In this document: positions 511 through 46,307 of the stretch, one piece after another
How the letters are laid out: the number at the start of each line of letters is the position of its first letter
Numbering within the stretch: position 1 is the stretch's first letter
Origin: Bacteroidota bacterium
GTDB taxonomy: Bacteria; Bacteroidota; Bacteroidia; UBA7662; JAIXUI01
DNA length: 46,307 nucleotides
Direction: 5' to 3'
Assembly (NCBI GenBank): GCA_027484125.1
Contig: JAIXUI010000005.1
Span: 1 to 46,307 of the forward strand
Notes under the pieces: generated by a model
Database searches by the model: none
What the model saw: only the letters and a program-made list of their open reading frames with translations
What the model was told of the DNA's origin: nothing
Program-made: the position numbers and the translations under genes

Positions 511-977
511 AACCTATTGAAGTATTGGCGAAAGCGTTGAAAACTGCCTGCATAGATTTAGGGTATTTGAGGCTCTTTAGAGGGTTAATGGTGCTGTCTG
601 CTCCGTAGTGCGAAGATAGAAAATCTTAAAATTCGTTGAGGTCTATGAGGATTTTTTTTGTTCGGTTCCTTGGGGGAGTTATGTGGATACAGACTTTAGT
701 GTTATTGCTGCCTTTGTGGCCCAGGTGGGATTGGTTGTAGTGTAGGTCGGTGCCTTGTTTCATAAGCTAGAAAGTTTGGTAACATATTGATTATTTGCGA
801 CATATTTCTTTACTGCATTGTGTAGGCCGGGTATATATGGTTAAGTTGAATTAGCTATACCTTTATTGTGGGCTGGCTATTTTTAGAAGTTGGCGGATCG
901 TTTTTCAATAGGAGACAGTATAAATGCTGTCTCAACGAGGTCGTTGCATTGGTCTTTTCACCTGCAACTTCTCGCTT
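511..977. other. Intergenic stretch without recognisable gene
   Basis: I see no credible coding frame, RNA gene or strong hairpin here. The sequence is rich in T and G on the plus strand. It separates the left 21-bp-period array from the second one at 978-1103. Confidence 0.5.
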
Positions 978-1103
978 CCTTCCCAGTGCTCTGAACTAAC
1001 CTTCAAAGGCTCCGAACTACCCTCCCAATGCTCTGAATCACTCTATCAATGTTCTGAACTATCCTCCCAGTCCTCTGAATCACTTTCTCTGTTTTCTGAA
1101 CTG
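978..1103. repeat. Six tandem 21-bp repeats with TCTGAAC core
   Basis: Six consecutive 21-bp units start at 978, 999, 1020, 1041, 1062 and 1083. Each carries TCTGAA, TCCGAA or a close variant at exactly the same offset (990, 1011, 1032, 1053, 1074, 1095). The rest of the unit varies around CCTCCCAGTGCTCTGAACTA. The core differs from the TACGCA arrays at the window edges, but the period is identical. Short frames through it encode heptads only because 21 bp is seven codons. It lies just downstream of the minus-strand gene ending at 1164. Confidence 0.75.
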
Positions 1104-18929: not shown

Positions 18930-19753
18930 TGTTACAAAATTTTTTTCCGGTGAAGTTAAAGGTGAGCTCGGACGAACTACACACTAATGGAAGTCTGTGA
19001 TTCATCTTCGTTTCCGCCTCTATGGAGGGCATTAATACTACGCTTAAACGGTTATGCAATGTTCATTCGTTAATCACTTTATCAGGTATGAAAAGTGTTT
19101 GTTTAAGAGTATCAAAGACCTTAGCAATATATCGGACACAACTGTCTTTATTTATCGATCCTGCCAGAAACGTTATCCAACTCTGAAAGCGATTCATTTC
19201 TCCCCAACCAATCATAATTCGGCCGTTATATCGGAATTCAATTTACAGACCCATAGCCTTTGTACCAATTAATTCACCGAAAACTAGGTGATATTTTTTC
19301 ACAGCCTGACATATTACCCATCTGTGTCCCATCTTATTGCTATTAGGAATCATCCCCACCCTAAACGGTTAAGAGAAACCTTTATCAGATGTAAACTTGC
19401 ATCTCATTGAAACCGGAAGAAGTGACAACATGCTGATTAAAAGAAACTTTATTACTTCCCCAAAGACACTGCAACTCCCCACAAGAACACACATCCGCGC
19501 CTCACTCTCACAACCCAACAGCAGGCATTACTCGACACCATGTCATGCAAAAGCCCCAGTCAAGCATGCTTGTTCTAGGGAGTTGGTTAGTGGACTTGAG
19601 GCTATTTAAAGGGATGTTGTTGGTTCGGTGTTATTCTTTGTCCGATGGTATGACTGTCGTTTTTTTAGCCGTATGGGCAGACACTCTTTTTGCCAAGCTT
19701 TTTTTCATCATTGGCTTGTGCTGCTAAAATGTGTGTGACTGTGAAGGGGTGGA
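18930..19753. other. Intergenic region left of the Wadjet operon
   Basis: About 820 bp with no convincing gene; the short frames present look random. It holds the left copy of the 17-bp direct repeat (19294-19310) and an imperfect palindromic stretch around CAAGCATGCTTG near 19550-19575. The latter looks like an eroded version of the hairpin at 16840-16873. Confidence 0.5.
19294..19310 (+). repeat. 17-bp direct repeat, left copy, flanking Wadjet operon
   Basis: TTTTTTCACAGCCTGAC, identical to 26836-26852. In both copies GTGA lies shortly upstream, so GTGA and TCAC can pair around a T-rich loop. The pair encloses 7.5 kb holding jetABCD and an IS remnant. Confidence 0.55.
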
Positions 19754-20902
19754 TTATTCACTGTCAAAGTATTTATTTACATAGTTAAATGGGATTTTCT
19801 CTTGTTCAAGTCTCCAGTTCTTCGTTTTCAAAATGTCGTAAAGCTGTTGTTCTTCGTCTGTCAAGTTTAGTTTCGTTGAAATCTTTGATGGTGTTCCATT
19901 ATCGCCTTCAAAAAACCTGTCAAAGGTTTGCTTGTCCATCAATATACTTCTTGTCTTCGAAAAGTAAGTTCGGAATTGAGATAGAATTTCAAAACCTTGA
20001 ACATCTATGTCACCCCAATAAAGCAAATCAAGATTGTTAAACCAGCGGACATTTTTAAGATTGAAAACGCTAAACCCACTTCCAAATATCGCAATAGTGT
20101 CATCCATTTTTGGAAGTGTCAAAGTGGTATAAAGTGTTGTTTTGTTTTCTACTACCAATACCTTTCTGATTGGTAATTCTAATTTTTCAAATTGGCTAAC
20201 TGGAATTGCAATATCATCTATACCCGTTAAAAATCTGTCTGATATTGTTTTATCAAGAACTTTAAATCTAATTTGAGGTTCAGCATATTTCAAATAGAAT
20301 CTTTTTTCAAATTCTCTTTCTTCGGTGTTTACGTGTTCGTGAATAAGGACATCCAGCAGTTCTCTAATTATGCTTTTATTCCTTTCTATAAATTTCGTAT
20401 GAACCTTTACCGGCAACTCTCTAACATATAAATTTGGTTTCGGATTTTGTTTGAAGTAATGACAAACTTGCAAAATATTTTTCCATTCGTTTGCATAGTC
20501 AATAACCTTTCTCAGATTTCTAATTATCCAATCTTTGAGTTCAGGGAATTCCCGAAGGATTGTTTCAACATTCGATTTAAAAGAATTAACTTCATTCTCT
20601 TTGTCTAAGAATTTCAAAAATTCTTTTTCATTATCAAAGTAAATTGAAATTGGCAAATCTTGAACTCCTAAATACTTTGTCTTTACTTTTTGAAAGTCTA
20701 AGGAATAGCCAAAACCTTTCTTTTCCTTTGAATGGCTTAGGATCAATTGAATTTCTCTTTCAAATTCAACTAGTGATGATTTGGTGTATGACTTATCGCC
20801 ACTAATTACCAATTTCTCAAAAGGTCGCTGTTCAACCAAAGATTGAAGAAAGGAAATATACTTTCTATCGGACTTATCCCTTATTTCCTCTGGTGTAATC
20901 AC
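19754..20902 (-). CDS. jetD: Wadjet protein JetD (Toprim-type nuclease)
   Basis: 382 residues. JetD (DUF3322/DUF2220) is the nuclease of Wadjet systems and cleaves circular plasmid DNA after loop extrusion by the JetABC complex. The C-terminal half shows the Toprim-like pattern VLVVENKTTLYT with the catalytic Glu, a central GSGFSVFNL, and YWGDIDVQGFEIL with the DxD pair. The N-terminal part is the DUF3322-like arm with conserved YANEWKNILQVCHYF. It is last in the operon and its start overlaps the jetC stop by 4 bp. Catalytic residues look intact. Confidence 0.92.
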   Translation of the reverse strand: MITPEEIRDKSDRKYISFLQSLVEQRPFEKLVISGDKSYTKSSLVEFEREIQLILSHSKEKKGFGYSLDFQKVKTKYLGVQDLPISIYFDNEKEFLKFLDKENEVNSFKSNVETILREFPELKDWIIRNLRKVIDYANEWKNILQVCHYFKQNPKPNLYVRELPVKVHTKFIERNKSIIRELLDVLIHEHVNTEEREFEKRFYLKYAEPQIRFKVLDKTISDRFLTGIDDIAIPVSQFEKLELPIRKVLVVENKTTLYTTLTLPKMDDTIAIFGSGFSVFNLKNVRWFNNLDLLYWGDIDVQGFEILSQFRTYFSKTRSILMDKQTFDRFFEGDNGTPSKISTKLNLTDEEQQLYDILKTKNWRLEQEKIPFNYVNKYFDSE

Positions 20903-29207: not shown

Positions 29208-32200
29208 TTACTTCCGTATGACGAACCGCTGGCTATGGGTTTGTCCATTTGCAGGGTTCGTGAGTCTTAGGAAGTAGATTCCATCGGCCAATCCTTCTAT
29301 CTGCACTTTCACTTGCTGACGCCCCTGACCTAGTCCTTGAATTTCCCAACGGCGGAACAAACGACCGCGGGAATCCAAAATACTAGCGTCTAGTTCGAGG
29401 GGTTCTGAGGTTTCAAGTGCTAAGGTCAATTGGTCTGATGCTGGATTCGGATATAGCTGGGTTGTCCAACTGTGGCTGGCTTCTACCACCGAAGTGAAGA
29501 AGAAACTGATGGTGTCTGCATTAGGAGAAGAACAACCATTGGCTGTCACTTGAACAGTGTAGTTGCCGTTTTGGGTGGGCTGGAATCTCGATTGGTTAGC
29601 GCCTGCTACTGGTCCGCTGCCTACCAATATCCACTGGTTGCCGCTTATTGCATTGGAGATTAAGGTGTCGGCCACTCGTGAAATCACCGGCTTCAAGGGG
29701 ATTGGGTTAACGGTTATGACTGTTGGTGCAGAGAAGGAGAAACAGCCGTTTCCACCGCTTACTCTCACTACCCAACTTCCGCTGCTTACCACTGGAAGCG
29801 GAGCGCCAACAGCGGCAAATGGTTGCCCATTTAGCACCCACGTTGCGTTTTGTGTGATAGAACTGCTGAGCGATACTTGTCCTCCTTGGCAGAAGGTGGT
29901 GGGGCCGCTGGCACCGATTAACGCTACTGGTGGCGTTGGATTTACAGTCGTGGTTATTCCGGCAGAGGTACTGCTGCAATTGTTGGCATTGGTAACTTGA
30001 ACGGTGTAGGTGCCTGCCTGTGTGGCCACTAGGCTGTCAGCGGTTTGTCCGGCTATGGGATTGCCATTGAGCAGCCATTGGTTGCCTGCAATTGCACTCG
30101 AGCGTAGCACTACTTGCGACCCGGAACAGAAGGTGGTGCTTCCTGCTGCGGTTATGGTTGGAACCGCTGGCAATGGATGAATGGTAACTGCAACCGGATT
30201 TGAGTTGCTCAAGCAGCCTGATGCATTGGTGCTTCTTACGGTGTATTGTCCGGTGGTGGAAACTCTCAAACTGTCTGCGGTTTGTCCGGCTATGGGTTGT
30301 CCGTCTCTGAACCACTGACGATTGGTTGCTGCATTGGTTAAGAGTAGGATGCTTTGTCCTTGACACAGGCTTACGGGCCCTGAAGGGGTTAGACTTGGTT
30401 GCGCTGGCAAGGCATCTACTTGAACGGTGTCTCCGGTACTTAAGCTTATACATCCTCCTGCATTTTCTACCCGTAGTTGATAAAAGCCTGCGCTGCTGGC
30501 GACGAGGCTATCTGCGGTTTGTCCGACTATGGGTTGTCCGTCTTTCAACCATTGTAGTCCGAAGCCAGCGAGGTTATTGACCCTAAATACAACTCGTCCT
30601 CCTTGGCAGAATCTCAGGTTGCCTGTTCTGCTGATGTTTGGCACTGTTGGCAGTGGATTGACGAAGATTCTGACACTATCGGAGGCAGTACCGCAACCTT
30701 GTGGGGTTACGGCTATGGCTTGGTAGAGTCCTGAAAGGATTATTTCTACGCTGTCGGCTCCTGCGGCTATCAACTGACCGTCGCGGAACCACTGTATTGA
30801 ATCGGTGGTGGTGGCTCTTAGCACCAAACCGTCGTTTTGACAGGAGGAAATGATGCCGCTTAGGTTAAGGGTTGGAATTGCAGGTTTCACATTTACCGTC
30901 ACGCTGATGGTGTTAGAGGTATTGCTACACCCGCTAAGGTTGCTGATTTGCAGGCGGTAATCCCCGCTTTGAGTGGCTTGATAGCTGGAGGCTTGTGCTC
31001 CTGAAATCGGAAGTCCATCGCGGAACCATTGCAGATTTCCCTGGGCGGTGGTAGTTAGGGTAACGCTGTCGCCTTGGCAGATGGTGGTATTGCCACTGCT
31101 TATGGCAGGAATGGCCGGTACTGGATTTACGGTTATCGCAATTGGGTTCGATTGGCTGGCGCAAAGCCCTCCATTGATGGCTTCTGCTTCATAGGTGCCG
31201 GCGGCATTGACCCATAAGCTGTCGCTGTTGTTGGCAATTTGCTGTCCGTCGCGGTACCATTTGATGGTTTGTGCCTGATAGCTGACCCTCAGCAAGACGG
31301 AATCTCCCAGACAGAGGGTTGTGCTGCCTTGTGGGGTTATGGCAGGTGTTGCTGGGATTGCAAATACGTTCACACTTACGTCGTTGGACACACGGTCACA
31401 GATGCCATTTTGTGTTGATACGCTGTAGTTGCCGCTGTCTCTTACTACCAAGAGGCTATCGTTAGCTCCGACAATGGTTTGTCCATTTTTCAACCACTGG
31501 TAGTTGGCTAATCCTGTGCTGCTGAGTACTACCGAATCGCCTTGGCAGAAACTCAAGGCATGGCTTGCGGTAATCTGTGGCTGGTTGGGGGTTGGAAGTG
31601 TTTGGGTGAGGACATCGTTCAGGGAGTTTACGGCACACAATCCATTTCGGCTTAAAATCAGGCTGTAGGTTCCTGCTTGGGTTGCGAACAAGGAATCTCC
31701 GGTTGCTCCGCTGATGGGACTTCCGTTGAAGGTCCATTGGGCATCTCCATCGGTATAAGTAGCTTTCAAGGCCACTCCGCTTCCTACGCAAAAGGTGGTA
31801 TTGCCAAGGGCGGTGAGGGTGGCTGCTGAGGGGTAGGTGTTTACTTGTACCGAAATGGCTGCTGAGGTGGCGCTGCATCCGTTTAAGTCGGTATAGCGAA
31901 CGCTGTAGTTGCCGGTTGCGGTTACCCAAAGGCTGTCGGTTTGTTGATTGGTTAATGCTTGACCGTTTAGCAACCACTGGTTGCCGTTGTTGTACGAACT
32001 ATTAAGCCTTATGCTATCACCTTGACAAAGGGTTGTGGCTCCTGATGGGATCACTGCCGGCAAGGTGGGTAGTGGGTGAATCACGACTGCAATTGCATTG
32101 GATAAACTGCTGCAACCGCTGGCGTTGGTCACTTTTAACTGATAATTACCGCTAATCCCTGCTACTAAACTGTCGGCGTTGGAGGTGCCGAATGGTTGTC

Positions 32201-35200
32201 CGTCTTTCAGCCAGGTTTTAGTACCTGTTGCGCCTGTAGCTTTGATCACTACCAATTCGCCCTGACAAACGCTGGCATTGCTCATGGCGGTTAATGTAGC
32301 AGATGCAGGATTGGCATTCACAGTAACGGTTTGGAAGCTCGACAATGCGGTACAACCAGAGCTATTGGTAAGTCTTACTCTGTAGCTTCCTGCAAGATTC
32401 ACCAAAAGGCTGTCGCTGTTGGCTCCTGGAATGATGTTGCCGTTTCTTAGCCATTGGAGGGTTCCATTTCCGGCATTTACTCGCAATAGAGTGCTCTCTC
32501 CGTCGCAAATGGCGACATTGCCAGTGAGGTTAACGGGTGCGGCTGGCACCGGATTTACCACTACAGACAGGCTATTACTCAAGCTGCTACAGCCGAAGGC
32601 ATTGGTGAGTTGTAGTTGATAGGTTCCTGTCTGATTGGCGATGATGGTATCGCTTTGTGCGGATGGCAGTGGTTGTCCGTCTAACAACCATTGTCTGTTT
32701 CCACTTGCTCCGGTCGTTCTCAAGATGGCTTGACCTCCTTGACAAAAACTCAGTGCTCCGTTTGCGGTGATGGTCAAAGGTGTTGGAACTGGATGGAAGG
32801 TTACCGCAATGGGTTGTGAAAGGCTCTCACACCCGAATGAATTGGTGCTGCTTAGCTGATAGCTTCCGGAAGAATTCACGACTAGCACGGTATCATTAGC
32901 CCCTAGCAGCGGTTGCCCATTCACTAACCATTGAGCACCTTCTACGGCTGTAGAAGTACTGAGTCTAAGGGTGTTTCCTTCACATTGGGTGAGCGCACCG
33001 CTAGCATTGATCAAGGGAACCGCAGGCAATGGGTTTACTTGAACGGTCAGGAGGTTGCTTTCGCTGAAGCAACCATTAGCTCCTACATTTCTTGCGGTGT
33101 AATCACCAGAGGTGGTGACTAACAAGGTGTCCGCTATCACATTCAAGGCTAGTCCGTTTCTATACCAATGTACGTTTACGCCTGCACTGCTTAGGGTTGT
33201 TGCATTTCCTGCACAGAATGACAAAGGTCCTTGTGATGAAATAGCGGGAGTGGTCGGCAATGATTGAAAGGTTATCGCTACGTCCTCGGAAGTGTTGCTG
33301 CATCCGGCTGTGTTGGTCACTACCAAACGGTAGTTTCCGCTGGTGGTGACAAGCAGGCTGTCGGCTTGAGCTCCGGAAATATCTGTTTGGTTATTCTGCC
33401 ACTGATATTGCTGGAAGCTGCCTATGGTCCGCAAGGTGACTGATTGTCCGTTGCAGAGGGTTTGATCGAATCCGGGGGTTAATACCGGAACTGTTGGAAT
33501 GGCGTTGACGGTTACAGCCGTTGGGACTGAAGTGGCGGAACAACCGGCCAGGGTTTGACGAAGGGTGTAGTTTCCGGAGGATTTAACTACCAAGGATGAC
33601 CCATTGGCGCCGTTGATAGGGTTGCCGTTGTTGAACCATTTTAGCCCGGCACTCAACGAAGAGGAAAGGGTTACGGAATCGCCCTGGCAGAATGCCAGGG
33701 AACCGGATGCTGCGATGGTGGGGATTGTGGGAGATGGGTTTACTACAATGTTTATCGCTACGGATGTAGCGGAACAGCCTCCTCGCTCAATACGGATCGC
33801 ATAGCTTCCGCTTGTTCTTACGGTTAAGGTTCGGCTGGTGTCGTCGGTTAGCACATTACCATTGCGTAACCATCTCCAAGAACCAAGGTTATCACTTGCG
33901 GTAAGCACCACACTATCAACGGAACAGAAGGTGGTGGCACCCGATGCGCTGATGGTTGGTGTGGGAAGTGCCGGGGTTACTACTACGGAAACGCCGGCAG
34001 AAAGTGCTGAACACTGACCGTTTGAAACTCTTACGGTATAGGTTCCTGCTGCTGTCGCGACTAAAGTTTGGGCTGTTGCACCAGCAATCACGACGTTGTT
34101 TCTCAACCAGGTATTGCCGGTTAGGCTGGAGCTGGTTAAGGTTACTGAACCACCTGAACAGAATTGCAAATTTCCTGAACTGCTTATTTGTGGTATTGAA
34201 GGCACTGCATTCACCACCACTGCGATGACATTTGAGCTGGTGGTACAATTGCCGTTGCTCACTCTAACAGCATAACTACCCGAGCTTTTCACGGTCAGAA
34301 TTCCACCGGTTTCTCCTACTATTGGCTGTCCGTTACGGAACCATTGATTGCCACTGGTGGCACTGGAACTGAGAAACACGGAATCGCCCTGGCAGAAGGT
34401 GGTTGCTCCCAATGCGGTAATTGAAGGGGTTGCCGGACTTGGATTTACCACTATCCGAACAAAAGCGGTGTCTCTACATCCATTATTGGTTCCGATAAGT
34501 CGGTAATTGGTGGAGCTTGCCGGACTGAATATGGGGGAAGATGAATTGGCATTGTTGATGCCGGTAACTGGTGTCCAGTTGTAAGAAGAAGCACCGGTGG
34601 CTTGTAATTGAGTGCTATTTCCTGCACATATTACGGTGTCACCAGTTAGCACTAAATTAGGCTTGGGGGCTACAGTAACCAAAACTTGATCAGTAGAGGT
34701 ACACCCAAATGAATTGGTGAGGGTTAAGGTATAGGTTGTGGTGGTTGAAGGAGAAGCCTTGGGGTTGGCAACGGTGGTGGAAGATAATCCGGTAGCTGGA
34801 CTCCAGCTGTAGGTGCCGGTACCTGATCCCATCAAGGTTACACTATCGCCCTGACAAACAAATAAATTGGCACCCGCTTGCGCGACTGGCGTCAACAAGG
34901 TGGAAGGACCATTGCTAACGTCATTAATCACGGCGATGATGTTGCTGGTTAGTCGAACCAAAAACAAACCGGAAGCGGTGTTTGGAACGGTCCAGTTGTA
35001 GCTGCCATTCGCTACCGGTACTGCTCCATCGATCATGGTCCATGTTAAACCATTGTTGTAAGACACTTCAATTCGAATGGTTCCCGTAAGTCCTTGAGAG
35101 GTCCATGTGATGGGCAATACCTGACAAGCCAAGTACTGTGCTCCGCCATTCGGAGAGGTGACGGTTAAACTGTTGGTGGTTTGGGTAATCGTGAAGGGGA

Positions 35201-38200
35201 AATTGGAAACATCCTGTTTACAGCTTGAACCAAACTCAGTGATTCGAATCAAACCATTGGACGTTGTAACGTTGGGCACTGTCCATAAATATTGACCGTT
35301 CGGAATAAATTGATTCACTACAATATTGGTCCAGGTTGTTCCGCCATTGAGGGAATAATCGATGTTGTAGTTCTTACTGGTTAAGGTATCGGTCCAGGTT
35401 ATCAAGCGTGTGGTATTGGCTTGCCATTGTCCGCCGGTGTTGGGGTCGGTAATGGTGATGGGCGCATAAACGGTAAACGCTGAATCGCTCACATCTACAC
35501 GGGCATTGTTGTTCTGATCCATCACCCTCACCAGGTAGGAGGCCGATCCAATAGCTGGCAATGTCCAGGTATAAGAAGCTGGATTGGCAGAGGAAGTTAG
35601 GTTGGCTACGAAGGTCCAATTCTGACCATTGTCGATGCTATATTCTATTCTAAAGAAGTTGGAGGCTCCACCACGGTTGAAGGAAATGGTGGTTTGTGCA
35701 CAGCCGAACAATTTTTCTCCTCCATTGGGCGTAAGTATCCGAATAGGGGGTTGGATGCTGAATACGTTGTTGCTGACGTCCAAAATACCGGAGTTTGTAA
35801 AATCTGAGATTCTAACCAAGGCCTGATTGGTGACGGTATTGGGTACAGTCCAATTGAAACTTCCACTGTTGGAAGTTGCATTGACGATGGTTTGCCAGCT
35901 ATTTCCATTATCCACGGAATATTCTAACCTCACAAAGCTTGAAGGGGTAAACTGGGAAGTCCAACTTATGGTCTGAACTGCTCCTACATACAGTATTTCA
36001 CCACCGTTTGGCGTACTTAAGTTGAAGGTTGGAACCGCTGGTAAAATGGTAAATGTAGCGTCGCTGACATCGTTTTTACAGGTGTTATTCACATCTGAAA
36101 CCCGAAAAACTGCGGTAGTAGAAGGTGTATTAGGAATGTTCCAAGTAAACTGATTGGTGAATGCGCTAACATTGGTGATAGAACTCCAATTCTGCCCATT
36201 ATCGATGGAATACTGGAGCGAAAGTGTAGAAGAGGTGCCCGTTGAGGCCCAACTCACTACCCTGCTGGTGCCTCCAGTCCAAATTTCTCCTCCATTAGGA
36301 CTGTTCACAATGATGCTTTGGTCTTGTAATAGGGTGAAATCTGACCTGCTGGAATCGCTCTTACTTAAATCTAACGCATCACTAACGCGAATTCTTACTG
36401 TATTGCTTGGAAGATTGGGCACTGCCCACGTATAGTTCTGGGTTACGGAGGTGGTTCCGAAATGGTTGTTGGTAATTAAATTCCAACTCTGACCACCATT
36501 CAAGGAATATTCGATTCTCCATTGGGAGGAGGTTCCTCCCCTATTCCAAGAAATAGTTCGGTTGGTACAAGCCGACCAATTCTCTCCTCCAACAGGCGCA
36601 TTTAGCACCACAAAGGGTTGAATGATGAAGGTCTGGGTGCTGGTACTCTGAATACCAGAGTTGCCTACTACGCTAATTCTTACTAAACCAAATCGTGTGG
36701 GGGTATTGGGGATGGTCCAGGTGAAATTGCCGGAGGTGTTGTTGGTTGGGGTAGAATTGGTTACGGTAATCCAACTCGAACCATTATCGATCGAATACTC
36801 GATGCGGATGTTGTTGTTCGGTAAGAATTGGTTAGACCAATTGATAGATTGGGTTTGACCTGCAAAAACGGTGGCTCCGTTGTTGAAACTGGTCAATGTC
36901 AGAATCGGATCAGGCGGGGTAATCTCAAAAAGTGAATCCGAGAAATCTCGTTTACAGGTGTTATTGAAATCCCTGATTCTAAATAATGCGGTCGTTGTTG
37001 GGGTATTCGGGATGGTCCAATTGTAGGTATTGTTGAAGGAACTTAGGTTGGTAATGGTACTCCAACTTTGCCCTCCATTGGTTGAATAGGATAGCTCAAG
37101 GGTGGAACTCACATTGTTGGCTGCCCATGATACTTGTTGAACGGTATTTCCTTTCCAACTTTCTCCTCCATTGGGGGTATTGATAACTATACTCTGATTA
37201 AGGGTGATGGTGTTATTGGACCTGCTGGAGTCTGCTTTCAATGGATCGAAAGAGTCGGTTACACGATAGCGAACTCCTGTACTTGGGGTGTTATTCACTA
37301 CCCATGAATAACTGAGACTAGTGGTAGAACCGAAACTAACGTTGTTGGCTATCGGAATCCAGGTAGCTCCGCTGTCGGTTGAGTAAGCAAAGTTGAATTG
37401 GTTGGAGGTTCCGCCTCTTGAGAAGGTTATGGTTCTGGTTTCACAGGCTGGCCAGGTTTGATTACCGGTTGGGGAGGTGAGCACTACAAACGGCAGAAGG
37501 GTGAAATTCACCGGGTTCACCGCCTGTATGGCACTATTGCCAACCAAGCTAATTTTCACCCTGGCTTGATTGGTTGGGGCATTGGGTACTGTCCAGTTAA
37601 AACTTCCGGAAGAGGTTCCCGCGGGTGCTGCATTCACAATCGTGATCCAGTTTGCCCCTCCGTCGATGGAGTATTCCAGCTTTACAAATGAGTTAGTCGG
37701 AATAAACTGATTGCTCCAACTGATGGTCTGCAACTGCCCGGCATACCAACTCACGTTCGTCGTCGGGTTTGTGATGGTAAAGGATTGATTGGCCGCGGTT
37801 ATCGTAAATGGCGCATCGCTGATGTCCTGCTTGCAGGTGTTGTTCCAATCCCTTACGCGGAATAGATTGTTACTTCCAGGTGCATTGGGTACTCCCCAAG
37901 TATATTGATTGGCACTAGAACTGATGGTGGTTATGGTGTTCCAATTCTGTCCTAAATCGGTAGAATACGACATCTCTAAGGTAGATGAAACATTTTGGGT
38001 GGCCCAACTCACTTGACGGTTGGTTCCTCCCTGCCATACTTCACCGCCGTTAGGAGAATTCAATATGATGCTTTGATCCCGTAGAATAGTGAATACTGCA
38101 TCAGAAACGTCGTTCTTACTATTATCCAATGCATCTGAAATGCGCACCAACACCGAGGTAGAAGGCACATTCGGAACCGCCCAAGTGTACGATAAATTGG

Positions 38201-41069
38201 TGCTACTGCTCGAGGATAAATTATTAACGATCAGTTGCCAGGTTTGGCCGTTATCGGTTGAATATTCTAACCTCCAACTATTGCTGGTTCCTCCTCTGCT
38301 CCAACTGATGGTTTGGGTATTGCATCCTGTTAAGGTTTGGCCTCCATTTGGGCTGTTTAACACAACAAAAGGAAGTATGGTGAAGTTAACAGGACTGGTA
38401 CTTTGAATAGAAGGACTCCCTACCGGACTCACCCGAACACGTGCTTGATTGGTAGGGGTATTGGGTACAATCCAGGAGTAAGAACCAAAGGTTGAGTTGG
38501 TTGGAGTTGAGTTAACAATGACCTGCCAAGTATTCCCCCCATCGGTAGAATATTCCAATCTTACAAAACTGCTGGGCAGGAAATTGCAATTCCAGGAAAT
38601 GGTTTGGGTTTGCCCTGCATACCAAGTAACTGCCGAGGTTGGACTCGACAAGCTGATACTGGCGTTAGGCGCAGAAATGGTAAATACGTTATCGGAAGTG
38701 TCCGCTTTACAGGTGTTGTTCCAATCTCTTACCCTAAACAAAGCGTTGGTGGTAGGCGTATTCGGAATCGTCCAGTTGTAGGTGTTGTTGAAAGAACTAA
38801 CGGTGGTGATGGAATTCCAGCTTTGTCCTGCATCGGTAGAATAGGATAGCTCCAAGGTTGAACTCACATTATTGGTGGCCCAGGAAGCCTGCTGGGTTGT
38901 GGAAGCTTGCCAAACTTGTCCGCCGTTCGGGGTATTAATAATCACACTTTGGTCACGAACTATCGTACCATTAACCCTCGATGAATCAGATTTTTGGGCA
39001 TCTGCTGCATCTCTTACTCTTATCCTTAATGCGTTGGTTGGTCTATTGGGCACTGACCATGTATAACTGAGGAAGGTACTGCTGCTAGTACTGAAGTTGC
39101 TGGTTATTAAAATCCAGTTTGCACCTCCATCTAAGGAATACTCAATTCTCCATAGGTTGCTGGTACCTCCTCGGTTCCAGCTGATGGTTTGGTTGGTACA
39201 GGCCGCCCAGTTTACGGAGGTGGTGGGTGAGGCCAAAACCACGAAGGGAAGCAGGGTGAAGTTAACCGGACTGGTTGAAGAAATGGATGGATTTCCCACC
39301 AAACTTACCCGCACCCTGGCTTGGTTAGTTGGTTCATTCGGGACGGTCCAATTGAATGAACCACTGGATGTTCCGGCAGGAGCAGAATTTACAATGGTTT
39401 GCCAGTTTGCTCCACCATCGGTAGAGTATTCCAACCGCACAAAAGAATTGGCAGGGAAAAACTGATGGCTCCATGAAATGGTCTGAAGCTGACCGGCATA
39501 CCAGTTGACTGACGATGTGGGATTGGTTAAACTGATGGTAGGGGTAGCTGCGGTAATGACAAATAGAGAATCACTTTGATCTACTTTACAGGTGTTGCTC
39601 CAATCACGAACTCTCACCAAAGCTTGTGTTCCCGGCGTATTGGGAACTAACCAATTGTATTGATTAAAGGCTGAACTAATGGTAGTAATGGAGCTCCAGC
39701 TCTGACCATTGTTGATGGAGTACAATAATTCTAACGTACTGCTGGTGGTTTGACTTGCCCAACTAATTACCCTGTTGGTTCCTCCTTGCCAAACCTCTCC
39801 CCCATTGGGTGAATTCACTATAATGCTCTGATCTCCAATAATTGTAAAGGAATCAGAGGTATCTCTTTTGGTCAGGTCTGAGGCGTCGGTAACCCTGAGC
39901 ATGACCGAGGTTCCTGGGGTATTGGGAACGCTCCAACTAAAGCTTACGCTCGTTGCGGAGTTGGAAATGTGGTTGTTGGCTATGGGAATCCAGGTCTGTC
40001 CTCCATTGGTGGAATAATCTATGTTCCATGAATTCGAGGTACCCCCACGCCCCCAAATGATCGATGTATTGTTACAAGCAGCCAACTGTGCTCCAGGAGC
40101 CGGGCTGGTAATTACCACAAAAGGGCGAATGGTAAATGGTTGTGAAATAGTTGAAATGGTGGTATCCGTAATGTGACGCAAACGAACCCTGGCTTGTGTG
40201 GTGGGAGTATTAGGAAGTGTCCAATTGAAACTTCCGGCAGTTGCGTTGGTAGGTGTTGAGGCCGCAACTAAGTTCCAGGTTAGCCCATTGTCAAAGGAGT
40301 AATCGATCCGTATAAAATTCGAAGGGAGATTGGCATTAGTCCAACTTACATTGATCACTTGGCCGGCAAACCAAGTCATTCCATTGGTTGGATTGGTGAT
40401 GTTAAGGCTTGAAGGTGCCGCAGTGATGGTAAAAACATTGTCAGAAAAATCGGTTCTGCAAGGAAAACCTGCATCGGTTACCCGAACCAAGGCTGTTGTG
40501 GTTGGAATATTCGGGACGGTCCAAGTGTAAGTATTGCTGGCTGTAGTGAAATTGTTGATGATGGGCGTCCAGCTCGACCCTGCATCGGTACTATACTCCA
40601 AATTGTAGGTCCCGGAGCCTCCCGAAGTGGCCGCCCAGCTGATGGTTTGGGTACTCTGCCCTTGCCACACTTGTCCACCATTGGGACTATTCAACACCAT
40701 AGGTGCTGTAATCGAAAACGGACTGTTGCTCTGATCCCTCACTACGGTATTCTGGGCATCCATCACCCTCACGAGTGCATTGGTGGTGTTTACATTCGGA
40801 ACTGTCCATGAAAAGGTCCTACCCAAGGCCTGAAAATTGGTGGCTACCGCACTCCAAGTAACCCCTCCGTTGATGGAAAAATCAACATTGAAAAAATTGG
40901 AAACAGATCCGGAAGTGGTCCATGTAACCGTGTATTGCGTACATCCAGGCAGTACTTCGCCTCCGTTTGGGCTGGTAACTGTTATTGTTTGTGCTTGGCT
41001 ATAAATGCCTCCTAAAAGCAATAAAGACAGTAAAATCCAACGTCTAACGCTAGTAAAAATTGGTCTCAT
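29208..41069 (-). CDS. Giant T9SS-exported multimodular adhesin-like protein (3953 aa)
   Basis: A signal peptide (RRWILLSLLLLGGIYSQA) is followed by 21 modules of about 97 residues (about 27-2060), each with SPNGGE-like, xISW, LEYSxDGGxxW and FxWTVPN motifs, a Kre9/KNH-like Ig-type fold. Two PKD/Ig-like linker domains follow (about 2060-2210: YSWSPATGL, YNWTPVTGI). Then come about 21 Ig-like modules of about 80 residues (to about 3860) with FCQGDSV, WLRNG, SGNYTVRVTN and a paired Cys. The end (about 3870-3953) is a type A sorting domain: YPNPASDQLTL, DSRGRLFRRW, LADGIYFLRL, RFVIRK. It should be exported by T9SS and anchored or released at the surface; an adhesive role is inferred from architecture. 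It is monocistronic, with no frameshift seen. Confidence 0.93.
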   Translation of the reverse strand: MRPIFTSVRRWILLSLLLLGGIYSQAQTITVTSPNGGEVLPGCTQYTVTWTTSGSVSNFFNVDFSINGGVTWSAVATNFQALGRTFSWTVPNVNTTNALVRVMDAQNTVVRDQSNSPFSITAPMVLNSPNGGQVWQGQSTQTISWAATSGGSGTYNLEYSTDAGSSWTPIINNFTTASNTYTWTVPNIPTTTALVRVTDAGFPCRTDFSDNVFTITAAPSSLNITNPTNGMTWFAGQVINVSWTNANLPSNFIRIDYSFDNGLTWNLVAASTPTNATAGSFNWTLPNTPTTQARVRLRHITDTTISTISQPFTIRPFVVITSPAPGAQLAACNNTSIIWGRGGTSNSWNIDYSTNGGQTWIPIANNHISNSATSVSFSWSVPNTPGTSVMLRVTDASDLTKRDTSDSFTIIGDQSIIVNSPNGGEVWQGGTNRVISWASQTTSSTLELLYSINNGQSWSSITTISSAFNQYNWLVPNTPGTQALVRVRDWSNTCKVDQSDSLFVITAATPTISLTNPTSSVNWYAGQLQTISWSHQFFPANSFVRLEYSTDGGANWQTIVNSAPAGTSSGSFNWTVPNEPTNQARVRVSLVGNPSISSTSPVNFTLLPFVVLASPTTSVNWAACTNQTISWNRGGTSNLWRIEYSLDGGANWILITSNFSTSSSTFLSYTWSVPNRPTNALRIRVRDAADAQKSDSSRVNGTIVRDQSVIINTPNGGQVWQASTTQQASWATNNVSSTLELSYSTDAGQSWNSITTVSSFNNTYNWTIPNTPTTNALFRVRDWNNTCKADTSDNVFTISAPNASISLSSPTSAVTWYAGQTQTISWNCNFLPSSFVRLEYSTDGGNTWQVIVNSTPTNSTFGSYSWIVPNTPTNQARVRVSPVGSPSIQSTSPVNFTILPFVVLNSPNGGQTLTGCNTQTISWSRGGTSNSWRLEYSTDNGQTWQLIVNNLSSSSSTNLSYTWAVPNVPSTSVLVRISDALDNSKNDVSDAVFTILRDQSIILNSPNGGEVWQGGTNRQVSWATQNVSSTLEMSYSTDLGQNWNTITTISSSANQYTWGVPNAPGSNNLFRVRDWNNTCKQDISDAPFTITAANQSFTITNPTTNVSWYAGQLQTISWSNQFIPTNSFVKLEYSIDGGANWITIVNAAPAGTSSGSFNWTVPNAPTNQARVKISLVGNSAIQAVNPVNFTLLPFVVLTSPTGNQTWPACETRTITFSRGGTSNQFNFAYSTDSGATWIPIANNVSFGSTTSLSYSWVVNNTPSTGVRYRVTDSFDPLKADSSRSNNTITLNQSIVINTPNGGESWKGNTVQQVSWAANNVSSTLELSYSTNGGQSWSTITNLSSFNNTYNWTIPNTPTTTALFRIRDFNNTCKRDFSDSLFEITPPDPILTLTSFNNGATVFAGQTQSINWSNQFLPNNNIRIEYSIDNGSSWITVTNSTPTNNTSGNFTWTIPNTPTRFGLVRISVVGNSGIQSTSTQTFIIQPFVVLNAPVGGENWSACTNRTISWNRGGTSSQWRIEYSLNGGQSWNLITNNHFGTTSVTQNYTWAVPNLPSNTVRIRVSDALDLSKSDSSRSDFTLLQDQSIIVNSPNGGEIWTGGTSRVVSWASTGTSSTLSLQYSIDNGQNWSSITNVSAFTNQFTWNIPNTPSTTAVFRVSDVNNTCKNDVSDATFTILPAVPTFNLSTPNGGEILYVGAVQTISWTSQFTPSSFVRLEYSVDNGNSWQTIVNATSNSGSFNWTVPNTVTNQALVRISDFTNSGILDVSNNVFSIQPPIRILTPNGGEKLFGCAQTTISFNRGGASNFFRIEYSIDNGQNWTFVANLTSSANPASYTWTLPAIGSASYLVRVMDQNNNARVDVSDSAFTVYAPITITDPNTGGQWQANTTRLITWTDTLTSKNYNIDYSLNGGTTWTNIVVNQFIPNGQYLWTVPNVTTSNGLIRITEFGSSCKQDVSNFPFTITQTTNSLTVTSPNGGAQYLACQVLPITWTSQGLTGTIRIEVSYNNGLTWTMIDGAVPVANGSYNWTVPNTASGLFLVRLTSNIIAVINDVSNGPSTLLTPVAQAGANLFVCQGDSVTLMGSGTGTYSWSPATGLSSTTVANPKASPSTTTTYTLTLTNSFGCTSTDQVLVTVAPKPNLVLTGDTVICAGNSTQLQATGASSYNWTPVTGINNANSSSPIFSPASSTNYRLIGTNNGCRDTAFVRIVVNPSPATPSITALGATTFCQGDSVFLSSSATSGNQWFRNGQPIVGETGGILTVKSSGSYAVRVSNGNCTTSSNVIAVVVNAVPSIPQISSSGNLQFCSGGSVTLTSSSLTGNTWLRNNVVIAGATAQTLVATAAGTYTVRVSNGQCSALSAGVSVVVTPALPTPTISASGATTFCSVDSVVLTASDNLGSWRWLRNGNVLTDDTSRTLTVRTSGSYAIRIERGGCSATSVAINIVVNPSPTIPTIAASGSLAFCQGDSVTLSSSLSAGLKWFNNGNPINGANGSSLVVKSSGNYTLRQTLAGCSATSVPTAVTVNAIPTVPVLTPGFDQTLCNGQSVTLRTIGSFQQYQWQNNQTDISGAQADSLLVTTSGNYRLVVTNTAGCSNTSEDVAITFQSLPTTPAISSQGPLSFCAGNATTLSSAGVNVHWYRNGLALNVIADTLLVTTSGDYTARNVGANGCFSESNLLTVQVNPLPAVPLINASGALTQCEGNTLRLSTSTAVEGAQWLVNGQPLLGANDTVLVVNSSGSYQLSSTNSFGCESLSQPIAVTFHPVPTPLTITANGALSFCQGGQAILRTTGASGNRQWLLDGQPLPSAQSDTIIANQTGTYQLQLTNAFGCSSLSNSLSVVVNPVPAAPVNLTGNVAICDGESTLLRVNAGNGTLQWLRNGNIIPGANSDSLLVNLAGSYRVRLTNSSGCTALSSFQTVTVNANPASATLTAMSNASVCQGELVVIKATGATGTKTWLKDGQPFGTSNADSLVAGISGNYQLKVTNASGCSSLSNAIAVVIHPLPTLPAVIPSGATTLCQGDSIRLNSSYNNGNQWLLNGQALTNQQTDSLWVTATGNYSVRYTDLNGCSATSAAISVQVNTYPSAATLTALGNTTFCVGSGVALKATYTDGDAQWTFNGSPISGATGDSLFATQAGTYSLILSRNGLCAVNSLNDVLTQTLPTPNQPQITASHALSFCQGDSVVLSSTGLANYQWLKNGQTIVGANDSLLVVRDSGNYSVSTQNGICDRVSNDVSVNVFAIPATPAITPQGSTTLCLGDSVLLRVSYQAQTIKWYRDGQQIANNSDSLWVNAAGTYEAEAINGGLCASQSNPIAITVNPVPAIPAISSGNTTICQGDSVTLTTTAQGNLQWFRDGLPISGAQASSYQATQSGDYRLQISNLSGCSNTSNTISVTVNVKPAIPTLNLSGIISSCQNDGLVLRATTTDSIQWFRDGQLIAAGADSVEIILSGLYQAIAVTPQGCGTASDSVRIFVNPLPTVPNISRTGNLRFCQGGRVVFRVNNLAGFGLQWLKDGQPIVGQTADSLVASSAGFYQLRVENAGGCISLSTGDTVQVDALPAQPSLTPSGPVSLCQGQSILLLTNAATNRQWFRDGQPIAGQTADSLRVSTTGQYTVRSTNASGCLSNSNPVAVTIHPLPAVPTITAAGSTTFCSGSQVVLRSSAIAGNQWLLNGNPIAGQTADSLVATQAGTYTVQVTNANNCSSTSAGITTTVNPTPPVALIGASGPTTFCQGGQVSLSSSITQNATWVLNGQPFAAVGAPLPVVSSGSWVVRVSGGNGCFSFSAPTVITVNPIPLKPVISRVADTLISNAISGNQWILVGSGPVAGANQSRFQPTQNGNYTVQVTANGCSSPNADTISFFFTSVVEASHSWTTQLYPNPASDQLTLALETSEPLELDASILDSRGRLFRRWEIQGLGQGRQQVKVQIEGLADGIYFLRLTNPANGQTHSQRFVIRK
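29470..34440 (-). repeat. Coding repeat array: about 21 Ig-like modules (~80 codons)
   Basis: Modules within the giant gene share the pattern 'I-ASG-TTFCQGDSV-L-SS', 'QWLRNGQPI-GA', 'SGNYTV', 'NGCSS-SN-I-V-VNP-P-P'. I count 20 clear ones and a degenerate last one without the first Cys. Conservation is patchy along the array, in contrast to the regular triads of the N-terminal array. Confidence 0.85.
34893..40991 (-). repeat. Coding higher-order repeat: seven A-B-C triads of ~97-codon modules
   Basis: Twenty-one modules fall into three types that alternate strictly. Type A has a Cys before the first strand and SWNRGGTSNxWRIEYS. Type B has EVWQGGT and ASTNVSSTLELSYS-like strands with NTCK near its end. 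Type C has WYAGQTQTISW and a NQFxPSNFVRLEYS strand. The basic triad is about 290 codons (about 880 bp). The first and last triads are the most divergent. Confidence 0.85.
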
Positions 41070-41878: not shown

Positions 41879-42226
41879 ATGTTCAAACGTCCTTTGGCAG
41901 CCCTCCTGGCTGTCTTGTTGCTCGCTTGCAATTCCAATTCCGATTCAGGCAACCTTCCTCCCGGAATTATGGCCAAAAACCAGCTCGCTGAAGTCCTCAC
42001 CGACGTTCACTTACTCGAAGCCCAAAAAAACATCCAAACCGGAACCCAGTATCAGATGACCTCCGATACCGTCATCCGATCCTGGTACCGCGATGTTTTT
42101 CGCCATCATAAGACCGACGAGAAAACCTTTAGACAGAGCTTGAAGTTTTATCAAGAACAGCAACCTGCTGTGCTCAAATCCATTTACGATACCGTTACCG
42201 CCCGCCTGAATGCACGCCTTTACTGA
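41879..42226 (+). CDS. DUF4296-like lipoprotein
   Basis: 115 residues. A signal with lipobox LLAVLLLAC at residues 9-17 indicates an outer- or inner-membrane lipoprotein. The mature part has the DUF4296 pattern: LAEVLTDVHLLEAQ, SWYRDVFRHHKTDEKTF and SLKFYQEQQ. The frame is open upstream to 41201, but that part is antisense to yggS and is not coding. A CACCTTTG box ends 4 nt before the chosen ATG. The gene overlaps mutS2 by 17 bp. Function unknown; the family is restricted to Bacteroidota as far as I know. Confidence 0.8.
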   Translation: MFKRPLAALLAVLLLACNSNSDSGNLPPGIMAKNQLAEVLTDVHLLEAQKNIQTGTQYQMTSDTVIRSWYRDVFRHHKTDEKTFRQSLKFYQEQQPAVLKSIYDTVTARLNARLY

Positions 42227-44660
42227 GCAGTCGCCTACTGCCCTCCAACTATATCCCCACAATGCCCTGAATCTGCTGGAGTTTCAGCAAATCAGAACCC
42301 TCTTGGCTGCACGCTGCCAGAGCCGCCAGGCAGCAGAACGCGCCCTCAGCCTTGTTCCTGAAACCCGCCACGATCTCATTGCAGACGCGCTCAACCTCGT
42401 TAAAGAATACGAGCTTTCCACCCAAACCGCCGACCGCTGGCCGGAACTTACCCTTCCCGAACTGCGCCCCATCCTTGCTGCTTTAGAAATTGAAGGCAAT
42501 CTCATCGAAGCCGAAAGCTGGCGCGACGTTAAATTCATGCTTCGCTCCTGCTTTCAAGTCTATGATTTTTTAGCAAGAAAAAAACAAGCCCTCCCCCGTC
42601 TTGCCCAGCTCGCCCATCAGCTCACCATCAACCGAACCCTCTTTACCCGCATCGATAAGGTGGTGGATGAAGAAGGTGAAATGAAACCCGATGCCAGCAA
42701 AACCCTGCAAACGCTGCACGATCGCGTAAATCGCGCTCGAACTGAACTAAGAAAGAAAATTGATAGCATCTACCGCAAAGCCAGAGAAGAAGGCTGGACC
42801 GGCGATGGCCTCGTAGGCTTGCGCGATGGGCGGTTGGTCATCCCTCTCCTCGCTGAACACAAACGCAAGATTCGCGGATTCATCATCGACGAATCCGCCA
42901 CCGGCCAAACCGTGTACCTTGAACCGGCTGAAGTACTCGAACTCAACAACGAGGTGCGCGACATGGAACTTGCCTGGAAAAGAGAAGTCCGCCGCATTCT
43001 CTTAGAACTGGCCGACTCCATTCGCCCGGAATTGTCCCTCCTTCTTGAATACCTCGAATTCCTCACCCACCTCGACTACATTCGCGCCTGCCACCTCTTC
43101 TCCCTGGAGTATGAAGGCATCGCCGTGGGCAGTTTGCCTCAGCCAGCCTTGCAATTCTTCAACGCCCGGCATCCGCTCTTGCTCATTCACCACCGCAAAC
43201 AAGCCAAGCCGGTGGTCCCCTTCAGCCTAAAACTCGATGCCGAAAAACGCATCCTGCTCATCTCCGGGCCCAATGCAGGTGGAAAATCCATCACCTTAAA
43301 AGCCGTTGGTCTGCTGCATCTTATGGCACAGTCCGGCCTCCCCATCCCTTCAGCCCCGGAAAGCGGCATCCAAGTGTTCAAGAAAATCTTCGTCAACATT
43401 GGCGATGATCAGTCTATTGAAAACGACCTCTCTACTTACAGCTCTCACCTCACCCACATGAAGGCGTTTACGGAAAACGCCGACGCTGACAGCCTCTTTC
43501 TTATCGATGAATTCGGTACCGGTACCGACCCACAAATTGGCGGCCCCATTGCCGAAGCCATCCTAGAACAATTGGTGCAAACACGCGCCAAAGGCATTGT
43601 AAACACCCACTTCTCCAACCTAAAAGCCTTCGCCAGTAGAACCGAAGCTGTGGTGAATGCCGCTATGACCTTCGATACCAAAAGTCTTCAACCACGTTAT
43701 GAACTCGTAACCGGACAACCCGGCAGCTCCTTCGCACTCGAAATAGCCCGGAAGATTGGCTTAAGTTCCGCTATCCTGCAAGCCGCCGGAGAGAAAATAG
43801 GTCAGCGAACCCAAAACGTGGAAGACCTCTTGCTCGAACTAGAAAATGAAAAGCAAGAAATGAACAAACTCAAGCATCTTGTCCGTCAGAAGGATGAGCT
43901 GCTCGACGATCTCATCAAAAAACACCAAATCAACGACCACGAAATCAAAATTCGCAAGCAGGAAATCATTCGCAAAACGCGGGAAGAGATGAAAGAAATG
44001 CTGGCGCGAACCAATCGGGAAGTAGAAAACGTCATCCGAAGCATTCGGGAATCTAAAGCCGATAAAGAAGTGGTGATGATGGCACGAGAAACCTTGAAAG
44101 CCATCCAAGAAGACCTGAAACCCCGAGAAAAGGAAGCCAAAAGCGACGGATCCGCCACACCCAATCCCGTCATTGGTGGTCCGTTGCAAGTAGGAGGTTA
44201 TGTAAGAATACGGCAAACCCAAGCCACCGCCTTGCTGCTTGAAATCAAGAAAAACAAAGCCGTGTTGGAATCAAACAGCTTACGGATGACCGTTGCGCTG
44301 GAAGATCTGGAACCCGTATCCAATGCAGAAGCACGCAAACAACGCAGGCAAACTGTGCTCGCCGCCACACCCGAGGTAAGTTCTGCCACCCAAGCTGCCA
44401 TTCAGCAGCAAATGGAATTTGTACACCAACTCGATTTAAGAGGCTACCGCACCCAAGACGCCATCGCCACCTTAGAGAAATTCTTAGACAAAGCCGTTGT
44501 GGCCGGATATGGCGAATTGCGCATCCTACATGGAAAAGGCGACGGCATCCTCATGCGATTTGTACGCGAAAACCTCAAAGGCAACCAATGGGTCAGTCAT
44601 TTTGAGAGCGAACATGCTGATAGAGGCGGCGATGGCGTCACCTTAGTGAAAATGAAATGA
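42210..44660 (+). CDS. mutS2: MutS2 family protein (Smr endonuclease / ribosome rescue ATPase)
   Basis: 816 residues. MutS2 suppresses recombination by nicking DNA intermediates and, in some bacteria, splits collided ribosomes. The MutS core and clamp region (residues about 1-330) includes DGRLVIPLLAEHKRKIRG. Walker A is SGPNAGGKS (about 352-360), followed by SSHLTHMKAF and Walker B LFLIDEFGTGTDP. A coiled coil with KOW-like part follows (about 530-650). The last about 75 residues are an Smr domain with LDLRGYRTQDAI and LRILHGKGDGIL. All motifs are intact. It overlaps both neighbours, so it is translated as part of a three-gene operon. Confidence 0.95.
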   Translation: MHAFTEQSPTALQLYPHNALNLLEFQQIRTLLAARCQSRQAAERALSLVPETRHDLIADALNLVKEYELSTQTADRWPELTLPELRPILAALEIEGNLIEAESWRDVKFMLRSCFQVYDFLARKKQALPRLAQLAHQLTINRTLFTRIDKVVDEEGEMKPDASKTLQTLHDRVNRARTELRKKIDSIYRKAREEGWTGDGLVGLRDGRLVIPLLAEHKRKIRGFIIDESATGQTVYLEPAEVLELNNEVRDMELAWKREVRRILLELADSIRPELSLLLEYLEFLTHLDYIRACHLFSLEYEGIAVGSLPQPALQFFNARHPLLLIHHRKQAKPVVPFSLKLDAEKRILLISGPNAGGKSITLKAVGLLHLMAQSGLPIPSAPESGIQVFKKIFVNIGDDQSIENDLSTYSSHLTHMKAFTENADADSLFLIDEFGTGTDPQIGGPIAEAILEQLVQTRAKGIVNTHFSNLKAFASRTEAVVNAAMTFDTKSLQPRYELVTGQPGSSFALEIARKIGLSSAILQAAGEKIGQRTQNVEDLLLELENEKQEMNKLKHLVRQKDELLDDLIKKHQINDHEIKIRKQEIIRKTREEMKEMLARTNREVENVIRSIRESKADKEVVMMARETLKAIQEDLKPREKEAKSDGSATPNPVIGGPLQVGGYVRIRQTQATALLLEIKKNKAVLESNSLRMTVALEDLEPVSNAEARKQRRQTVLAATPEVSSATQAAIQQQMEFVHQLDLRGYRTQDAIATLEKFLDKAVVAGYGELRILHGKGDGILMRFVRENLKGNQWVSHFESEHADRGGDGVTLVKMK

Positions 44661-45229
44661 TGGAAGCCCCCTGCTGGTGGTTGCTCTTCGGACTCACCCA
44701 TAGCTTATTGGCACAAAACGGCCAACGCATTGGCCTAACCCTAGGAAATAAGCCAGGCTACCATCGCCTTTGGCGATTAAGCTATAACCTATTGGCGTTA
44801 GCACTTTCACTGAAAGCACTTCATACAGGTTGGCATGAAGCAGGTTCACCCCCAACACTGCTGCTTATGCCAAGCCTGATGGCTTTACTCTTCGCATTGG
44901 CCGGAATTTACCTGATACAGCAAGGTTTCCAAGGATACCGGCTTAGCAGCTTTTTAGGATTACGAAATCCACAACCCATAGAACCCTTGGCCACCAGAGG
45001 CATACACACCGTCGTCCGACATCCTCTTTATAGCGGAACCCTGCTAATCCTCCTCGCTTGGGGGATTATTTGGCCAGCTCCAACCCACCTCGTCAGCCTC
45101 CTCGTGCTGTTGGCTTATACCCTGATCGGGTTGGAATTTGAAGAAAAAGACCTTCGGAAAATTTACGGAGAAACCTACCTCGAATACGAAAAACAAACCC
45201 CGTGGAAAATCATCCCGAAAATCTGGTAA
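44657..45229 (+). CDS. Isoprenylcysteine carboxyl methyltransferase (ICMT/NnrU-like) membrane protein
   Basis: 190 residues with about five hydrophobic segments. The C-terminal motif set TRGIHTVVRHPLYSGTLLIL, then GLEFEEKDLRKIYGETYLEY, is typical of ICMT/PEMT-type methyltransferases, with the RHP block and the Glu-rich tail that bind S-adenosylmethionine and substrate. The substrate in bacteria is generally unknown. The gene overlaps mutS2 by 4 bp (ATGA). It is the last gene before the right-edge repeat array; I saw no clear terminator. Confidence 0.82.
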   Translation: MMEAPCWWLLFGLTHSLLAQNGQRIGLTLGNKPGYHRLWRLSYNLLALALSLKALHTGWHEAGSPPTLLLMPSLMALLFALAGIYLIQQGFQGYRLSSFLGLRNPQPIEPLATRGIHTVVRHPLYSGTLLILLAWGIIWPAPTHLVSLLVLLAYTLIGLEFEEKDLRKIYGETYLEYEKQTPWKIIPKIW

Positions 45230-45473
45230 ACCCTATTGACCCCAAAAAAGGCATTTTTGACCCAGTTTCAATAACGCTTTGCCGTTACGCCAATCAATGA
45301 TCCCAACAATTATCGGAACAGGAGGATGAGGATGAGCGAATATCGGCGCTAATCATTCGGTTTTTGTGATGCCATAGAACCTTTTCCCGATTCAATGGCA
45401 AGCATCAACGTTAAACAAACCCGCCTAATCGATAACCAATTGCGCTTGGCTCAAGTATAAAGTCACACTGACG

Positions 45474-45914
45474 ATTGAAACCTACGCAAGGACCATTTAT
45501 GCTTACGCACCAACGATACTTACTAACGCTTTATGAATTGAAACCTACGCAAGGACCATTTATGCTTACGCACGAGCGATACTTACTTACGCCTTATAAA
45601 TTGAAACATACGCAAGGACCATTTATGCTTACGCACCAACGATACTTACTTACGCTTTATGAATATAAACCTACGCAAGGACCATTTATTCCTACGCACG
45701 AGCGATACCTACTTACGCTTTATGAATTGAAACTTACGCAATGACCATTTATGCTTACGCACGAGCGATACTTACTTACGCTTTATGAATTGAAACATAC
45801 GCAAAGACCATTTATGCTTACGCACCAACGATACTTACTTACGCTTTATGAATTGAAACATACGCAAGGACCATTTATTCCTACGCACGAGCGATACATA
45901 CTTACGCTTAGCTA
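45474..45914 (+). repeat. 63-bp higher-order repeat, seven units
   Basis: Units start at 45474, 45537, 45600, 45663, 45726, 45789 and 45852. Each is three 21-mers: ATTGAAACCTACGCAAGGAC(C), ATTTATGCTTACGCACCAAC(G), ATACTTACTTACGCTTTATG(A). Units alternate between CACCAACG and CACGAGCG in the second monomer, hinting at a 126-bp superperiod in part of the array. Confidence 0.92.
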
Positions 45915-46016
45915 ATAGATTATTTCGCTTTGATGATATATTTCTTCGCACTGACGATTTATTTCTTCGCACAAGCTTTACATATTTATTCTTAGCTAAT
46001 ATGTTTTTATACTTTG

Positions 46017-46307
46017 ACGATTAAAACTTTCGCAATGAAGATTTATTTCTTCGCACAAGCCTTTTACATTTATGCTTAGCTAATATGTTAAGGTGATTTC
46101 ACGATTAAAACTTTCGCAATGAAGATTTATTTCTTCGCACAAGCCTTATATATTTACGCTTAACTAATATGTTAAGATGATTTCACGATTGAAACTTTCG
46201 CAATGAAGATTTATTTCTTCGCACAAGCCTTATATATTTATGCTTAGCTAATATGTTAAGGTGATTTCACGATTGAAACTTTCGCAATGAAGATTTATTT
46301 CTTCGCA
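46017..46307 (+). repeat. 84-bp higher-order repeat, about 3.5 units to the window edge
   Basis: Units begin at 46017, 46101, 46185 and 46269. Each is four 21-mers: ATTGAAACTTTCGCAATGAAG-like (21), ATTTATTTCTTCGCACAAGC-like, TTATATATTTATGCTTAGCT-like and ATATGTTAAGGTGATTTCAC-like. The fourth monomer has lost the CGCA core. The lattice phase is the same as in the 63-bp part; 45915-46016 is a transition of eroded monomers. Confidence 0.9.

Follow-up and report, generated by a model that had tools for sequence, protein, structure and literature searches.

Trimeric and tetrameric higher-order repeats in a 21-bp array at a Bacteroidota contig end, with sister arrays of mostly unrelated sequence

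At the right-hand end of a Bacteroidota contig (JAIXUI010000005.1; the window is the whole stretch analysed, 46,307 nucleotides), an array of degenerate 21-bp monomers runs in exact register and passes from 63-bp to 84-bp higher-order units. On balance, the array is probably a non-coding, satellite-like minisatellite that grows by whole, two-turn 21-bp monomers. Exact register and higher-order structure are accompanied by sister arrays in the same genome, and the specificity for a 21-bp period holds both here and across the class.

Architecture and content of the terminal array

The array comprises 39 complete 21-bp monomers and a further 15 bp between 45474 and 46307, with zero insertions or deletions along the series. 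Phase tracking by a Viterbi procedure detected no register shift over these 834 bp, bearing out a sequence-only reading in which about 40 monomers keep exact register from 45474 onwards. The 63-bp units (A-B-C) come first and are followed by 84-bp units (A-B-C-D; Table 1). Autocorrelation of 45474-45909 gave identities of 0.91 at lag 63 and 0.53 at lag 21 (0.15-0.23 at lags 20 and 22), and that of 45910-46307 gave 0.89 at lag 84 and 0.45 at lag 21; the peaks expected at lags 21, 63 and 84 are all present. At lags 7 and 10.5, the signal is no higher than in column-permuted arrays. TRF returned a 63-bp unit in 6.9 copies and an 84-bp unit in 4.3 copies, both with 0% indels. Both higher-order forms had been recognised beforehand, but the switch between them is less direct than was described, as it passes through about five irregular monomers that stay in phase. 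Monomers A, B and C of the trimer half match their counterparts in the tetramer half at 15, 14 and 12 of 21 positions, respectively, and the tetramer consists of the diverged A, B and C of the trimer with one added monomer, D.

At the left edge, positions 45390-45473 have a mean PWM score of -0.5 in the array's own phase vs -16.5 in the best of 20 other phases. Because this segment scores clearly best in the array phase, the decaying edge is real, as had been proposed from weaker in-phase monomers reaching back to about 45390; left of that position the phase signal is lost in PWM phase scoring. What ends at 46307 is the contig and not the array, so the array probably extends beyond what the contig shows.

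Table 1 Coordinates of the array, its neighbours and associated elements (window positions unless a locus handle is given)
Feature	Position	Strand	Basis or remark
Decayed monomers in the 21-bp phase of the array	45390..45473	.	PWM phase score
63-bp higher-order unit, seven copies	45474..45914	+	Autocorrelation, TRF, CGC in 21/21 monomers
Monomers of the 63-bp unit: A = ATTGAAACCTACGCAAGGACC, B = ATTTATGCTTACGCACCAACG, C = ATACTTACTTACGCTTTATGA	45474..45914	+	
Irregular in-phase monomers, about five, bridging the 63-bp and 84-bp parts	45915..46019	+	Monomer listing, unit scores
84-bp higher-order unit, A-B-C plus extra monomer D (ATATGTTAAGGTGATTTCACG)	46020..46307	+	Truncated by contig end
Membrane methyltransferase-like gene (PEMT / isoprenylcysteine methyltransferase type)	44657..45229	+	Pfam PF04191, E 3.6e-9
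mutS2-like gene (MutS_V, Smr)	42210..44660	+	Pfam; upstream of the methyltransferase-like gene, same direction
Second, distinct 21-bp array	975..1100	+	Consensus CTACCCTCCCAGTGCTCTGAA, 6 units
Cassette system loci	Window 410-757	-	
Cassette system loci	L059:7063-7740; L080:12568-14158; L054:2803-3060		
Further cassette system loci	L066, L081, L113, L062, L044, L069, L042		
Palindromes of the GAGACGGCATNNATGCCGTCTC type	Window 901-940; L054:3107-3150; L059:6905-6953; L080:11839-11865		

The trinucleotide CGC occupies monomer positions 12-14 in 32 of the 39 monomers overall, that is, in all 21 of the 63-bp half and in 11 of the 18 beyond. Monomer D is without the CGC core and tetramer C mostly reads TATGC; the core therefore recurs once per 21 bp only in the first half. 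The fixed TACGCA/TTCGCA core claimed earlier for every monomer thus stands for the 63-bp units and fails for the later part.

The array is non-coding. Each of the six frames holds 12-44 stops and the substitutions carry no synonymous bias, findings that rule out a coding gene fragment and agree with the earlier view that no frame is sustained. A derivation from a heptapeptide-repeat protein gene would draw on the equivalence of 21 bp with seven codons, and one frame is open over 89 aa; set against the stops, the absent synonymous bias and the rarity of codon-compatible 24-bp arrays (see below), this explanation is refuted for this array and keeps almost no probability. A CRISPR array is likewise ruled out, as degenerate monomers run continuously, with no identical repeats separated by unique spacers, in line with what had been noted before. 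The array DNA had no match in plasmids or phages, none in viral contigs by pattern search and no relatives in a set of 295 class genomes from outside the same family and genus, which excludes the known elements searched. The sequence-only reading had named a missing 21-bp peak, a known element and a gene fragment as results that would overturn it; tests for all three found none of them.

Alternatively, the repeat could be transcribed into an RNA with a structured or guide-like role, or could serve the operon upstream of it as a regulatory 3' region. In the 63-bp half, the minus strand outperforms shuffles in folding (z -3.8), and the tetramer half gives z values of -2.1 and -2.5. On the other hand, the plus strand of the trimer half falls short of shuffles (z +1.7), Rfam returned no match for the array at E <= 1, and good folding in tandem repeats can be trivial. 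We regard such a role as very unlikely.

Sister arrays in the genome and across the class

A period scan (13-45 bp, score >= 0.48) covered 1.25 Mb of the 3.33-Mb genome (about 37%), in contigs of which three were picked for TWCGC pattern matches and the others by number. It returned 20 matches at period 21 and 17 at period 42; the heptamer-type periods 14, 28 and 35 gave 4, 5 and 3 matches, and the remaining periods gave single or double matches at 19, 24, 27, 37 and 38 only. With coding repeats (C7, C11, C57) and pure heptamers (C20, C104) left out, about 15 non-coding 21-bp arrays remain, representing about 13 distinct consensus sequences. Related arrays fall into the groups C162a/C44/C106b, C162m/C24, C60/C95 and C149/C101/C1, where C101 is the contig described above, and the A-B-C trimer is seen again at C149 (identical positions of 21: A, 14; B, 10; C, 14). 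Since 13 of 136 array pairs are related at p<0.01, part of the period sharing inside the genome may be due to common descent.

Across 16 arrays (5,951 bp), a single net register shift was found, at C106:16535; this count covers net shifts only, with a gapped alignment opening 96 compensating gaps in all within the arrays. The period-21 scan favours in-register stretches, and the shifted C106 array was detected nonetheless. The units of the 16 arrays diverge by 5-26% at the higher-order lag (796 mismatches), and a non-coding dispersed repeat from this genome shows, between aligned copies, 116 gap openings to 1,486 mismatches. With one shift as compared with so gap-rich a dispersed repeat, register is preserved far better than sequence, and this strictness may reflect selection or growth by whole-monomer copying.

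The tetranucleotide ACGC is common to A, B and C of the 63-bp half and to the related C149 array, amid columns that mostly differ, a pattern of conservation compatible with recognition. If the array were a phased platform for a nucleoid- or chromosome-organising protein, that protein would contact ACGC at every second turn, always on the same side of the helix; exact two-turn phasing and strictly conserved register also speak for this reading. Against it stand the absence of the core from D and mostly from tetramer C, sister arrays that are mostly unrelated, and a common motif not above the null among eight core array families (z 0.6). A core motif common to all arrays was rejected, as the z of 5.7 over 13 profiles stems largely from related families. 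Nor is there a sign of selected curvature: with assumed wedge angles, the trimer half is predicted to bend by 36 degrees over 126 bp (dinucleotide shuffles, 44 +- 18), and intrinsic curvature as a selected trait was discarded at a pooled z of -0.07 against column-permuted 21-bp arrays (13 arrays). Core loss, mostly unrelated sisters and curvature not above these controls go against the fixed-core array that had been proposed to bind protein or organise the nucleoid, and we consider such a platform unlikely. The single helical face and the two-turn spacing invoked in the same proposal would fit the period lock.

The preference for 21 bp extends to other genomes of the class. Six ACG trinucleotides spaced 21 bp apart occur in 31 of 247 class genomes (585 matches) vs 5 of 247 (21 matches) at the equally codon-compatible spacing of 24 bp, and the backward pattern (GCA) in roughly 56 genomes at 21 bp vs 12 at 24 bp; these counts cover loci irrespective of coding status, 80-bp strings being uninformative on frame for 21-bp repeats. 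Control periods were scored in 26 genomes, of which 24 had been selected on account of ACG matches at 21 bp: period 20 occurred in one genome with one array, period 22 mainly in one genome, and period 28 in one genome with ACG and a few more with GCA. The richest genomes are almost empty at 20, 22 and 28 bp. Array sequences vary between genomes and between loci within one genome.

Individual sister loci have features of their own. Two array families, CGTTCACACGAAAGTAGAGGT and CGGACACACGCGGGAACAACC, meet in exact register at L147:15968-16765, and the sole register shift (16535) falls in this stretch. A Cas9 gene (NCBIfam cas_Csn1, E 1.3e-35) begins ~300 bp downstream of another 21-bp array, CTCAATGCTCGACCGTCCCAC (L079:18652-19092 and 19397-20000). 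A 37/38-bp tandem repeat, CCCTTTCGTGCCCTCCGTGCCTTTCGTGGACATAAAAA, is present at L045:8447 and L061:6-750. In a genome from another family of the class (G023 C2, L157:4005-4270), a 21-bp array is built of AATTGCG, a variable part and TATT, and its stretch at about 4005-4270 looks non-coding.

Whole-monomer growth and comparison with known systems

In satellite-like growth, the array would gain and lose whole 21-bp monomers or blocks via unequal recombination or replication slippage. The trimeric unit would have arisen first, the addition of one monomer would have produced the tetrameric unit, and older, decayed monomers would remain at the edge of an array that itself belongs to a genome-wide population with a common unit length and mostly unrelated sequences. 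Expansion by whole monomers had been suggested earlier and gains support from the absence of register shifts, the higher-order duplications and the many sister arrays. With a helical repeat of 10.5 bp, no length in whole base pairs shorter than 21 bp completes an integral number of turns. The step would most likely be fixed at 21 bp as two full helix turns, which could keep misaligned duplexes or bound machinery in rotational register; we infer both the expansion process and this helical reason.

As the 21-bp lock is found at loci without detectable relation, the step length would stem from a mechanism or from phase selection. Likewise, the same unit length at arrays of unrelated sequence, in this genome and in dozens of distant relatives, suggests that length, not sequence, is generated or preserved. 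More tentatively, Bacteroidia-like genomes may share a class-wide system of sequence-diverse 21-bp arrays, their length set or conserved by a putative two-helical-turn mechanism (either machinery that amplifies in 21-bp steps or a DNA-binding structure that reads phase), a possibility we hold short of probable. If true, it would be a bacterial counterpart of satellite DNA, and if unit length is conserved across loci and genomes, cells would count two helical turns during repeat formation, or select phase. One contig's curiosity thereby turns into a testable question, namely by what means bacteria produce and retain satellite-like DNA. In practical terms, 21-bp arrays help account for assembly breaks (5 of 15 checked array positions reach a contig end), and annotators are cautioned against taking such arrays for heptapeptide proteins.

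The array consists of head-to-tail copies and fits the bacterial minisatellite unit range of about 10-100 bp. It resembles bacterial minisatellites or VNTR in being intergenic, in its tandem units of tens of bp and in its probable whole-unit expansion; unlike these, the arrays described here have one and the same 21-bp unit length at loci whose sequences are mostly unrelated, with strict register and higher-order repeats. Eukaryotic alpha satellite DNA is likewise made of diverged monomers in multimeric higher-order repeats that decay at the edges, whereas the present array is bacterial, short, and of 21 bp rather than nucleosome-sized. Plasmid iterons are direct repeats at about two-helical-turn spacing and are similar in this respect; they differ in that the 21-bp arrays are many, dispersed and of differing sequence in one genome, with no adjacent initiator gene identified (the left-side genes are mutS2 and a methyltransferase, and the right side is truncated where the contig stops).

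Among repeats with one favoured unit length, those of heptanucleotides are the best known, and they outnumber every other class of long SSR (Mrazek 2007 as cited in PMC4679880). Such SSRs (TAACTGA arrays, PMC4679880) are, like the 21-bp arrays, intergenic, patchy in Bacteroidetes and of a single favoured unit length with differing sequences; the arrays here have degenerate 21-bp units and are without 7-bp substructure. Their abundance would favour a heptanucleotide origin (3 x 7 = 21), in which heptamer slippage was followed by divergence and by retention in groups of three, as would the heptamer arrays common in the class and present in this genome (C20, C104). However, no 7-bp signal is left over (lag-7 identity 0.26 vs a column-permuted null of 0.25; pooled z 0.45), 39 of the 40 listed loci in other genomes are not heptameric, and diverged 28-bp arrays do not go along with 21-bp ones, making this origin quite unlikely. 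Archaeal Borg tandem repeats (PMC9879509) are also many per genome, unique in sequence, contig-terminating, and both intergenic and genic, but their units vary in length and are nearly perfect, with only 14-38% of intergenic unit lengths divisible by three (PMC9879509). No description of 21-bp-locked arrays was found in the open-access literature.

Flanking genes and an integron-like cassette system

The stop codon of the methyltransferase-like gene lies 244 bp left of 45474. Its NCBIfam matches are weak, and no match was found at E 1e-20 among 59 relatives. At 29208-41069 (minus strand), the window encodes a repetitive surface-type protein of 3953 aa whose C-terminal sequence resembles a secretion sorting domain. 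A REP-like palindrome (Table 1) adjoins several arrays and recombinase tails.

In an integron-like cassette system, a tyrosine recombinase is followed by a ~340-bp tail that recurs at least 13 times. We also weighed whether the arrays are amplified attachment sites of this recombinase, whose cassette ends carry TACGCAAG motifs ~21 bp apart. The tails hold TATACGCAACT, TATACGCAAGT and TACTCAAGT at ~20-22 bp steps and are also present on several array contigs. Nonetheless, tail-array alignments are no better than dinucleotide shuffles (z -0.5 to 0.9; C149 <=1.6). Derivation from such sites was rejected on this ground, and the explanation as a whole is highly improbable.

The recombinase matches NCBIfam integrase_gron and XerA, both below cut-off, and the tail comprises the recombinase 3' end plus a site ending GAGTTGCGTAAACAGGGATGTTA. 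Unique genes begin directly after GATGTTA; judged by eye, the cassettes look defence-related (FRG-like, TIR-like, Rpn-like). The cassette system seems to break many contigs.
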